Source: Alphaproteobacteria bacterium (GTDB lineage Bacteria > Pseudomonadota > Alphaproteobacteria > UBA7985 > JAUIBT01). From it: a DNA stretch of 64,000 nt. The position numbers and the translations under genes are program-made. Location: positions 1 through 64,000 of the forward strand of contig JAUIDR010000012.1 in the NCBI GenBank assembly GCA_030428565.1. The letters are read 5' to 3'. The number at the start of each line of letters is the position of its first letter. The stretch's first letter is position 1. Under the pieces are notes generated by a model. The model was not told the DNA's origin. It did not search any database and saw only the letters and a list, made by a program, of their open reading frames with translations. Positions 19,928-23,515 of this stretch are shown in pieces.

Positions 19928-22303
19928 ATGCGCTCTCGGTTTTCTCGCCTAACTCATTGGATTCGTGCTGCTTTTCTTACCAGCCTATTCGCCCCTTTGT
20001 TGGTTGGCGCGGTGCAGGCCCAGCCTTACCGCCTGGCCTACCTGCCGCTTGAGGCCACAACCAGCCAACAGCTGTCTAGCGAGGTCTTTCGCCTCGATCC
20101 CATGCAAGCCAACAAGCCGGTTTTTGATGGCGCTATCCTGCAAGGCCTAGCCGACGACAGTTATCTCTTCACGCTCGACAACCCGCTGAGCGTCGCCAGC
20201 AACTATTATTTTGAAGGCCGAATCGCGCAGAGCGAAAACGGCCTGAGCCTGACGTTGGCCAAGGCCAATATCGACCTGCCCACCTTGAAGGGCTTTGCCC
20301 AGCGCCTCGATCAGCGCTTGGCGGCCGGTCAGAGCACAGGCAGCGGCGGTCTGGTCGTCCTCAACCTGGTGCAAGGCGACGCCTCGGCCATTTCAGCGCT
20401 GCACTTGCTGGCGAACGAGCTGAACGAGAGCCTAACAACCCTTTCGGTCGTCATTTTGCTGAGCGAAGATAGCCCGAACGAAGCCTTCTCAACCGCAGCC
20501 GCCACCATGCGCCGCATCATCCATGGCTATGCCGACCGCCCCCCCTTCGGCAACGCCGACAGCCAGGTGACGCGCGATGAAATCCAGAGCTATTTGTTGC
20601 GCATGAGCGAGCTGAAAGACGATTTGCTCTATGCCCGTATCGCGGCGCCCAGCGGTCAAGCGGTGGTAGCCATCAATCCTGACATCCCGCACGACGCCCG
20701 CGATGCCATCGATTTCCAGCGCGAACTCGCCGAGGTGCAGTTTTCGATCATTATGGAAGATGCAAGCGCGCTTGCCACCTATCTCAACACCTGTGAATTC
20801 TGCCCTGAGCTGGAACAAGCACAAAAAGTCAGCAGCAAGCTGCAAGAAAACGACGCCCGTCTGATGGCCGAGACCCAATTGGTCAAGCGCGTGATCAAGG
20901 CTGAGAAGGTCGAGGCGCTGGACGCCTATTTGAAGACCTGCGAGATTTGCCCTCGGCGCACCGAAGCCGAGAGCCTGTTATTCGCGCTGCAACAGAACCA
21001 GGCGCGCGCCGACGAACAAAGCGAATGGGAGGCGGCCAAGCGCTATCGCGATACGGTCAAGATCACCCAATATCTGACCAGCTGCCGTTTTTGTGAAAAC
21101 CAAGTCGAGGCGGTAGCCCTGCGCAATCAGCTCTTGATAGAAGAAGAAGATCAAGGCCGTTGGGATGAGGCCCGTGCGCAAGGAAGCCAAGACGCACTGC
21201 GTGCCTACATTGCTAATTGTCAGGCCTGTGGCTTCAAACCCGCCGCGCAAATCCAGCTCGATGAGCTGATGAGCGCCGAGAAACAGGCGATTGAGATGCA
21301 AGCCTTCCAGACCGCCTTCGATCAAAACGACTTTTCGGGCCTGCGCAGCTATTTGGACACCTGCGAATTTTGCGTCGAGAAATCGACCGCGCTGGCCAAG
21401 CTGGACGCGCTTAGGGCCAAAATGAAGGACCAAATCGACGGCATGATGGGCGGCTGTCGAGAAATCGCCCCGCGCATCAAGTCGCGCGGTCTTGTTCTGA
21501 CCGCCGACGAGGTCGCCCAAGCCGGCGAGACCTGCCAGAAAGTGCACGATCTGGACCCCACTTTCAACGAGGCGGCAGTCTTGTTGGCGCGCGCTTTGAT
21601 CGCGCAAGGCCAGCTTGATACCGCGCGCGGCTTGTTAGCCAATGGTCGCTTCGATGACTACCCGCACGGTTATAGTGTTCAGGCCTGGTTGACCCTGCGT
21701 GGAACCGAGAGCGAGGCCAATTTCCAGAAGGCGGTGAGCGCGCTGGAAGCCGCCGAGGCGCTGGACGATCCCTTCGCAGCCCTGCACCTGTCGGGTCTCA
21801 TCTTGAGCGGTAAGCTGGACGGCAAAGGCCCCGCAGACGCCTTCCAACTGTTGGAAAAGACCGCCAATTTGGGCAACGCCTACAGCCAGACCACGCTGGG
21901 ATGGATGTATGAGAACGGCAGCGGCACCGAAGCCAATGCCGAACAAGCCGCCACCTGGTACCAAGCCGCCGCCAATCAGGGCGAAGGCACCGCATTGGGC
22001 TATCTGGCCAGCCTGTACGAGACCGGCAACGGCGTCACGCGCTCCAATGGCGCAGCAGCGGACTTATATATGCAAGCGCTGGACCGTGGGTCGTCTTGGG
22101 TCGCCAACCGCCTGACCAACCAATGGCAAGACCGTGATCCCGAACTGCTCAAGGCCGTGCAGGTCAAACTGCAAGAGCGTGGCTTGTATGAAGGCGATAT
22201 TGACGGGCTCTTCGGCCCTGGCACCAACGCCGCCATTACCGGGCTGCAGCAAGCCAAGACGCTGACCGCCTATCCTTTGCTGGGCATCGAGCTCGAGCGC
22301 TAG
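19928..22303 (+). CDS. Secreted/periplasmic CxxC-repeat, Sel1 and peptidoglycan-binding protein
   Basis: A 791-aa protein starting at ATG 19928; an in-frame upstream extension to 19856 would bury the signal peptide. It has a clear signal peptide (basic start, hydrophobic core, VQAQP cleavage region near residue 31). The middle contains five copies, spaced about 45-49 residues, of a helical repeat built on YLxxCxxC: TCEFCPE (about 287), TCEICPR (336), SCRFCEN (385), NCQACGF (430) and TCEFCVE (477). Two to three Sel1/TPR-like repeats follow (about 630-725, with GWMYENGSGTEANAEQA). The C-terminus is a PG_binding_1 domain (VKLQERGLYEGDIDGLFGPGTNAAI). It probably acts at the cell wall. The paired cysteines could form disulfides or bind metal. 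I know no named family with this repeat; relatives may include caspase-like proteins with single YLxxC repeats. Confidence 0.85.
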   Translation: MRSRFSRLTHWIRAAFLTSLFAPLLVGAVQAQPYRLAYLPLEATTSQQLSSEVFRLDPMQANKPVFDGAILQGLADDSYLFTLDNPLSVASNYYFEGRIAQSENGLSLTLAKANIDLPTLKGFAQRLDQRLAAGQSTGSGGLVVLNLVQGDASAISALHLLANELNESLTTLSVVILLSEDSPNEAFSTAAATMRRIIHGYADRPPFGNADSQVTRDEIQSYLLRMSELKDDLLYARIAAPSGQAVVAINPDIPHDARDAIDFQRELAEVQFSIIMEDASALATYLNTCEFCPELEQAQKVSSKLQENDARLMAETQLVKRVIKAEKVEALDAYLKTCEICPRRTEAESLLFALQQNQARADEQSEWEAAKRYRDTVKITQYLTSCRFCENQVEAVALRNQLLIEEEDQGRWDEARAQGSQDALRAYIANCQACGFKPAAQIQLDELMSAEKQAIEMQAFQTAFDQNDFSGLRSYLDTCEFCVEKSTALAKLDALRAKMKDQIDGMMGGCREIAPRIKSRGLVLTADEVAQAGETCQKVHDLDPTFNEAAVLLARALIAQGQLDTARGLLANGRFDDYPHGYSVQAWLTLRGTESEANFQKAVSALEAAEALDDPFAALHLSGLILSGKLDGKGPADAFQLLEKTANLGNAYSQTTLGWMYENGSGTEANAEQAATWYQAAANQGEGTALGYLASLYETGNGVTRSNGAAADLYMQALDRGSSWVANRLTNQWQDRDPELLKAVQVKLQERGLYEGDIDGLFGPGTNAAITGLQQAKTLTAYPLLGIELER

Positions 22304-22462: not shown

Positions 22463-23515
22463 GTGCCTTCATCTCGCTCTATCCATCGGCTCTATCACTG
22501 CTTCGGCTTCATTGCGGTCGCCTATTTCGCCTTGGCCCTGTGTAACGGCGGTCTTGGGACGAACAAGGTATGGGCCCAGAACCAAGACAAGCCCTCGCCC
22601 TTTGCCTTGTTGCAAAAAAGCGCGGCCAAGAGCGCTGCGCCCGGTGACTTTGCCTCGCGCATGGTCAAGCCCAAAGCCAGCGACGGCAAAAAACCCAGCG
22701 TGTTGCTGTTTGGCTCGTCGGTCCTGGTCGGTCACGTCGGCCAGTGCTTTCACGAAACGCTAGAAGCCAATGGCGCGGTTCCCAACTCCTTAGCGCTGTG
22801 TGGCGCCGCCAGCCGCACATTTGAAGAAGGCCGCGTCTATTCTTGCGATTTCGCCAAGGCAAGGGGGCAGCAAATGCGCAGCTACCTGGGACGCCGCACG
22901 CTCTTTGGCAGCGCCTTTAGCAATGATATTTCCTTCGCGGGCAGCGCTGTCGCGCTGAAGGCCAACAACGGCAGCCTCTTGATCCACGACGCCATCGACC
23001 AGATGCGACCCGACCTGATCGGCTTTATTTTGGGCGACAATGAAAGCGGCTATGGCCGTGATCGCGACCTATCCAGTCCCGAAGCACGCGAAGCCTACAA
23101 GACCAAACTGCGCGCCTATATCCACGCTAACAACTTGGTCGATTTGCTGCCGCAAAGCCAAGCCTGTTTTTATGTGGCGCCGACCTGGGTCTCAAAGGTC
23201 AGCCCCAAATACGGCAAGACCAACGAGGAAGTAGCCATCGTCAACGAGGTCATTGGCGAAGAGACCGCCGGGCGCTGCCAGTTCATTTCGGGCACGCGAT
23301 TGATGGCGCGTGGCGAGGTCGCCACTTCCGACGGTCTGCATCTCAACCGCCGCAATGCCTGTGTTTTCGGAACGCGCATCGCCCAGAGCCTCATTCGGGC
23401 CAACCCGCAGCTTGCCTGGCAACCGCCCAAGCCCCTCGCCGCAGAGAACGACAGCCAGCAAGCAGCCATTCGCGCAGGCGCCAGCAAGCCGCTACCAGCC
23501 TTCATGACGCCCTAG
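22463..23515 (+). CDS. Secreted SGNH/GDSL-type hydrolase-like protein
   Basis: A 350-aa protein with GTG start at 22463 and a signal peptide or membrane anchor (hydrophobic 12-30, cleavage near VWAQNQ). The globular part has the SGNH blocks: VLLFGSSVLVG with the nucleophile at about Ser86, FILGDNESG with the block-III GxN near residue 190, and ATSDGLHLN giving the D-x-x-H pair near 288. Such enzymes are esterases, often removing acetyl groups from glycans or peptidoglycan. The substrate cannot be told from sequence. It lies downstream of the peptidoglycan-binding CxxC protein on the same strand (160-bp gap). It converges with the histone-deacetylase-like gene, overlapping it by four bases. 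Confidence 0.78.
   Translation: MPSSRSIHRLYHCFGFIAVAYFALALCNGGLGTNKVWAQNQDKPSPFALLQKSAAKSAAPGDFASRMVKPKASDGKKPSVLLFGSSVLVGHVGQCFHETLEANGAVPNSLALCGAASRTFEEGRVYSCDFAKARGQQMRSYLGRRTLFGSAFSNDISFAGSAVALKANNGSLLIHDAIDQMRPDLIGFILGDNESGYGRDRDLSSPEAREAYKTKLRAYIHANNLVDLLPQSQACFYVAPTWVSKVSPKYGKTNEEVAIVNEVIGEETAGRCQFISGTRLMARGEVATSDGLHLNRRNACVFGTRIAQSLIRANPQLAWQPPKPLAAENDSQQAAIRAGASKPLPAFMTP

Follow-up and report, generated by a model that had tools for sequence, protein, structure and literature searches.

A predicted secreted protein carries five regularly spaced CxxC hairpins

The analyzed window, a 64,000-nucleotide stretch of an alphaproteobacterial contig, contains a gene (P0001) at positions 19928..22303 of the forward strand, on which all its parts described below are read. 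The gene starts with an ATG at 19928, its stop codon ends at 22303, and it encodes a protein of 791 residues. All three congeneric genomes share the gene order ispD-ispF-pgpA-like-cinA-[gene]-GDSL-like gene-histone-deacetylase-like gene, in which the names ispD, ispF, and pgpA were assigned by eye. The downstream gene at 22463-23515 is kept in all three genomes. Its product is probably secreted and has weak similarity to GDSL/SGNH hydrolases (E = 0.0048, under the cut-off); it is a possible functional partner of the CxxC protein.

The protein opens with a putative signal peptide of the Sec type (residues 1-31, 19928..20020), judged by eye from a hydrophobic stretch ending VQA/Q, followed by an N-terminal alpha/beta domain (residues 33-262, 20024..20713). 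Five hairpin units with one CxxC motif each come next. Unit 1 (20711..20857) contains C289 and C292, encoded by codons 20792-20794 and 20801-20803. The codons of the other pairs start at 20939 and 20948 for C338/C341 in unit 2 (20858..21001), 21083 and 21092 for C386/C389 in unit 3 (21002..21136), 21218 and 21227 for C431/C434 in unit 4 (21137..21280), and 21362 and 21371 for C479/C482 in unit 5 (21281..21436). A cysteine-linked TPR segment (21440..21658) then holds C510 (21455-21457), C536 (21533-21535), and a TPR_19 match at residues 526-577. The C-terminal part consists of Sel1-like repeats in two stretches (approximately residues 635-722, 21830..22093) and a PG_binding_1 domain (residues 741-780, 22148..22267).

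Three domains pass the Pfam cut-offs: Sel1 (PF08238, E = 5e-10, 40 bits against a cut-off of 30.7), TPR_19 (E = 1.1e-6), and PG_binding_1 (PF01471, E = 8.4e-6, 26.3 bits against a cut-off of 23). PG_binding_1 was matched in all nine members of the family. The initial annotation of this DNA had named a signal peptide, Sel1 repeats, and a peptidoglycan-binding domain; the last two are borne out by Pfam, the signal peptide by inspection, and TPR_19 is an addition to that list. Sequence matches to the PDB, Sel1 structures among them, are confined to the Sel1 or peptidoglycan-binding part, and none of these solved structures resembles the CxxC region in sequence.

The CxxC motifs begin at residues 289, 338, 386, 431, and 479, giving cysteine spacings of 49, 48, 45, and 48 residues. 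The dipeptides that precede them, starting at residues 285, 334, 382, 427, and 475, are YL, YL, YL, YI, and YL, respectively. None of 20,000 shuffles of the protein contained more than three CxxC motifs, compared with the five observed. The five regularly spaced repeats reported in the initial annotation were thus confirmed, with its residue figures off by no more than about three. Of the 12 cysteines of the mature protein, ten are in the repeats; the other two, C510 and C536, are invariant in all nine family members. The segment around the latter two (CxxlAxxp...A..aC..a) resembles a stretch of Sel1-type proteins from other alphaproteobacteria (CDKLAADP...AIPACQEA in L099). No cysteine lies beyond residue 536, so the Sel1 repeats are cysteine-free and lack the cysteine pairs of Hcp-type proteins. 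The haem-binding motif CxxCH is absent from all nine family proteins, which rules out haem c sites and a multihaem cytochrome c.

In an AlphaFold2 model, units 2-5 each form a short helix of approximately 10 residues, a loop with the CxxC motif, and a long helix of approximately 28 residues. In unit 2, for example, helices at residues 328-337 and 344-373 flank the loop that holds residues 338-341, and units 3-5 are alike. The input alignment had three rows, and unit 1 was poorly modeled; over residues 321-510, the 10-residue means of pLDDT were 67-84, and the whole-model mean was 58.9. Foldseek matched the model to generic TPR/Sel1 solenoids.

The CxxC unit is a variant of the YPxG hairpin

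We ran a profile of the CxxC array against 385 genomes from the class and 398 from the phylum. Outside the genus, the matches examined, with L047 left out, were repeats with a YPxG turn (W..a...dt...yraYLxxYPxGxfAxxArxrL) and E-values from 1e-4 to 6e-13. Most carriers belong to one family, L041-L050, of caspase-like proteins that have lost the catalytic dyad and have a PG_binding_1 domain. Further carriers are a kinase-like protein (L031), a protein with a signal peptide (L032), and a protein from the same order with the caspase motif SGHG (L038).

An unanchored hhalign comparison of the CxxC and YPxG hairpins gave a probability of 95.1% (E = 3.2e-8) and placed the first cysteine opposite the Tyr and the second opposite the Gly. 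Its score was 55.3; the highest score among 150 column shuffles was 18.8. In an earlier shuffle run, 2 of 60 shuffles scored 131-134, and a rerun identified these as hhalign artifacts with gaps of 6-9 columns. The register rests on hhalign; a MAFFT alignment made jointly from units cut beforehand was set aside because it was anchored on the motif.

The YPxG protein L041 matches the Pfam family YfiO (BamD-type TPR) with an E-value of 5e-10. Residues 262-505 of the window protein had no YfiO (PF13525) or TPR match in the Pfam search, and we therefore regard the CxxC units as a diverged homologous variant of this family, not as a Pfam member. Judged from these profile comparisons, the CxxC unit is a YfiO/BamD-type TPR hairpin in which the turn YL-x-x-Y-P-x-G now reads YL-x-x-C-x-x-C. 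The repeat had at first appeared to match no nameable family; the profile search found it to be the YPxG hairpin of alphaproteobacterial caspase-family proteins, and these relatives, together with the hhalign match, rule out an unknown repeat family. A literature search, mostly outside subscription papers, found no description of the CxxC repeat.

Cysteines are conserved pairwise within a single genus

Orthologs are present in both other congeneric genomes compared, with shared gene order and 89% and 65% identity over the repeats. They retain 12 of 12 cysteines, at 62-86% identity of the other positions. Two tandem paralogs, an arrangement also conserved in the genus, lie on another contig of the source genome and have five and four CxxC motifs, respectively. 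Compared over residues 262-544, the first paralog has only 21% identity at non-cysteine positions, yet it retains all 12 cysteines. With non-cysteine identity of 15-18%, the second retains 10 of 12, and the missing cysteines are one complete pair: its repeat 2 reads FLRSYPNAP, with SYPNAP, where other members have YLxxCxxC. An extra close pair in its N-terminal domain (C106/C111 in the G000 member) brings the count back to twelve. A third gene beside the tandem paralogs (L022, 832-2523, on contig C87 of G000) encodes two CxxC motifs followed by a low-complexity acidic tail.

CxxC arrays were found in all three genomes of the genus and nowhere else among several hundred alphaproteobacteria searched. 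A profile of the single CxxC unit, run against 289 genomes of the class, scored in this genus only, and a tblastn search of the repeats against plasmids gave no match. The protein is of a known kind, and its repeat is a known one in a cysteine-bearing form specific to this lineage. The initial annotation had asked whether homologs lack the cysteines. The answer is divided: orthologs keep all 12, and cysteine-free homologous repeats are common.

Other caspase-like proteins have cysteine pairs at the same turn

Caspase-like proteins of the same genus have one or two hairpins with paired cysteines at the position of the YPxG turn. The spacing is Cx2C in proteins on G000 contigs C88 (L082) and C58 (L084), both of which match PF00656, and Cx3C in proteins on C18 (L138; YLKTCNAVCAF) and C107 (L139; YLSSCQPVCAF), which fall below the Pfam threshold but are identified as caspase-like by their motifs and an hhalign match (98%). 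A protein from the same order has Cx5C at this turn (YLSECERRVFC). L138 has a cysteine pair in one hairpin only, and a pseudocaspase on contig C89 of the source genome has the cysteine-free YPxG turn. Taken with the full arrays, these forms indicate that partly and fully converted proteins coexist.

Several of these loci have further cysteines or domains. L082 (C88, 30000-39000) comprises two divergent caspases with intact dyad motifs and 28 cysteines each in the open frame; CxxC is in the first hairpin and other cysteines are in later hairpins. In the L084 caspase, later hairpins have a single cysteine at the Gly position of YPxG (FIRSNPSCSAEVAEA) and another at the start of a helix, a different cysteine pattern on the same repeat. 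In L139 and in L140 (G002, C21), a caspase-like domain with Cx3C and CxxC hairpins is fused to an FGE-sulfatase domain, a combination reported for metacaspases (PMC3501461).

The initial annotation had proposed that the cysteines form either a disulfide ladder between repeats or a metal site. A ladder joining neighboring repeats, as in the Helicobacter Hcp proteins, has precedent (PMC3851747) and agrees with the fact that every repeat places its cysteines along one edge of the solenoid. However, the paired cysteines sit three residues apart in one loop, they are lost together, and in L138 the only pair is in a single hairpin. In TPR geometry, moreover, disulfides would not be expected to reach from a turn to its equivalent in the neighboring hairpin. 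With each pair inside one turn, we consider a ladder very unlikely.

CxxC is also a common metal knuckle, and some family members have weak, sub-threshold zinc-finger matches, as would suit repeats that hold zinc or another metal singly or by pairs of repeats. Against this, the unit has no second pair of ligands, the spacing at the same turn varies among x2, x3, and x5 in relatives, YPxG or YPNA replaces the motif cleanly, and the window protein, which lacks CxxCH, matches no metal family above its cut-off. Metal binding is therefore improbable.

The same variation in spacing bears on a redox-active thiol relay or sensor, in which dithiol-disulfide cycling would switch the scaffold or its binding with the periplasmic redox state. 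Thioredoxin-type active sites have the CxxC spacing, and here it is kept in every ortholog and in the first paralog. However, there is no thioredoxin fold, relatives have Cx3C or Cx5C in the same place, and the cysteine-free version is the usual one, all of which argue for a structural role. Redox sensing by the CxxC pairs is possible, and a relay or sensor as their main function is unlikely.

The N-terminal domain may be a degenerate caspase

Residues 33-262 have no Pfam match. PF00656 is absent from this domain in all nine family members, which were likewise not recovered by a genome-wide PF00656 search. The domain of the window protein has no SGHG or DxC motif and no cysteine, and hence no catalytic His-Cys dyad. 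A profile of the nine N-terminal domains aligned with one of six caspase domains from the same genus at 69% probability (E = 4.4e-5), a borderline result; the score of 41 compares with at most 19.6 in 60 shuffles and 13.6 for the reversed profile. On the caspase side, the alignment covers the C-terminal part of the domain (G.AD...GN.D...EL.ayL), and in the CxxC proteins the aligned stretch directly precedes the repeats, the same placement as in the caspases of the genus. Against caspases of other lineages, the same profile gave probabilities near zero. The AlphaFold2 model of the domain was of low quality (pLDDT 49.5), and a fold search yielded no significant match, the best E-value being 0.097; a caspase-4 complex in that search had an E-value of 1.5 and is meaningless. 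From the profile alignment, a degenerate caspase fold is plausible for this domain.

A local disulfide staple is the favored reading

We favor a local disulfide within each turn because the pair is lost as a unit, spacings of two, three, and five residues are tolerated, the cysteines are always at the same turn, they interchange with YPxG, the protein has a signal peptide, and the source genome encodes DsbA and DsbB homologs. The protein is probably a periplasmic scaffold for protein interactions, tethered to the cell wall, with disulfide-stapled TPR hairpins and possibly a degenerate caspase as its N-terminal domain. After secretion, the peptidoglycan-binding tail would hold the protein at the cell wall, and DsbA/DsbB would oxidize each CxxC pair in the periplasm. 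The resulting disulfide would close the turn that connects the short helix to the long one, in place of the Pro/Gly turn, and the stapled turns would stiffen a protein-binding surface at the wall.

The envelope scaffold with disulfide-forming cysteine pairs suggested in the initial annotation is consistent with the signal peptide, the Sel1 and peptidoglycan-binding domains, the all-or-none conservation of cysteine pairs, and the Dsb machinery. We infer that the CxxC pairs are oxidized to disulfides. The PG_binding_1 domain points to wall binding, and the established roles of Sel1/TPR and peptidoglycan-binding domains suggest a scaffold or adaptor function there.

Relation to known systems and significance

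The closest counterparts are the alphaproteobacterial caspases and pseudocaspases L041-L050, which are likewise secreted and share the hairpin unit, the kind of C-terminal wall-binding domain, and an N-terminal caspase-like domain. Their turn is YPxG without cysteine, whereas the window protein has CxxC in all five hairpins, a cysteine-linked TPR segment, and Sel1 repeats, and its N-terminal domain is too diverged for PF00656. L083, from the same genome, is a YPxG-hairpin caspase or pseudocaspase with SH3 in place of PG_binding_1. L082, L084, L138, and L139, all from the source genome, resemble the window protein in that one or two of their hairpins have Cx2C or Cx3C at the position of the YPxG turn, and several have weak PG_binding_1 matches below threshold (19-22 bits against the cut-off of 23); they differ in keeping the HG and CFSG dyad motifs and in their extra domains, SH3 and FGE-sulfatase.

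In prokaryotic metacaspase homologs, the caspase domain occurs together with interaction domains such as Sel1 and TPR, and the catalytic dyad is conserved in only 75% of those from alphaproteobacteria (PMC3501461). The domain mix of the window protein is alike, although PF00656 fails on it. Helicobacter HcpB and HcpC and Campylobacter Csep1P are secreted alpha/alpha solenoids in which each repeat has one disulfide (PMC3851747, PMC12904459). The Hcp disulfides lock the repeat geometry (PMC3851747), and in Csep1P the paired cysteines are nine residues apart (e.g., Cys59/68) and join the helices of Sel1-type repeats (PMC12904459). In contrast to these proteins, whose cysteines are in Sel1-type repeats, the window protein has cysteines three apart in a YfiO/TPR-type turn and a cysteine-free Sel1 region. 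We found no evidence that the two cysteine patterns share descent.

A further proposal is that this lineage systematically converted the YPxG turns of its periplasmic caspase/pseudocaspase family into cysteine pairs that make the solenoid switchable by redox state; wall-bound pseudocaspase scaffolds would then detect periplasmic oxidation, or react to it, alongside active caspases of the same genome. We regard this as a long shot.

In the stapled-hairpin reading, CxxC, which can form a disulfide, has replaced YPxG, a standard solenoid turn, residue for residue, in tandem and across several paralogs of one genus. The genus, in which partly converted proteins persist, offers a natural experiment on the acquisition of disulfide staples by secreted repeat proteins, and the swap may serve as a rule for designing stiffer TPR-like scaffolds. 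The comparison also links a previously unnamed repeat to periplasmic caspase-like proteins of alphaproteobacteria, which have been little studied.
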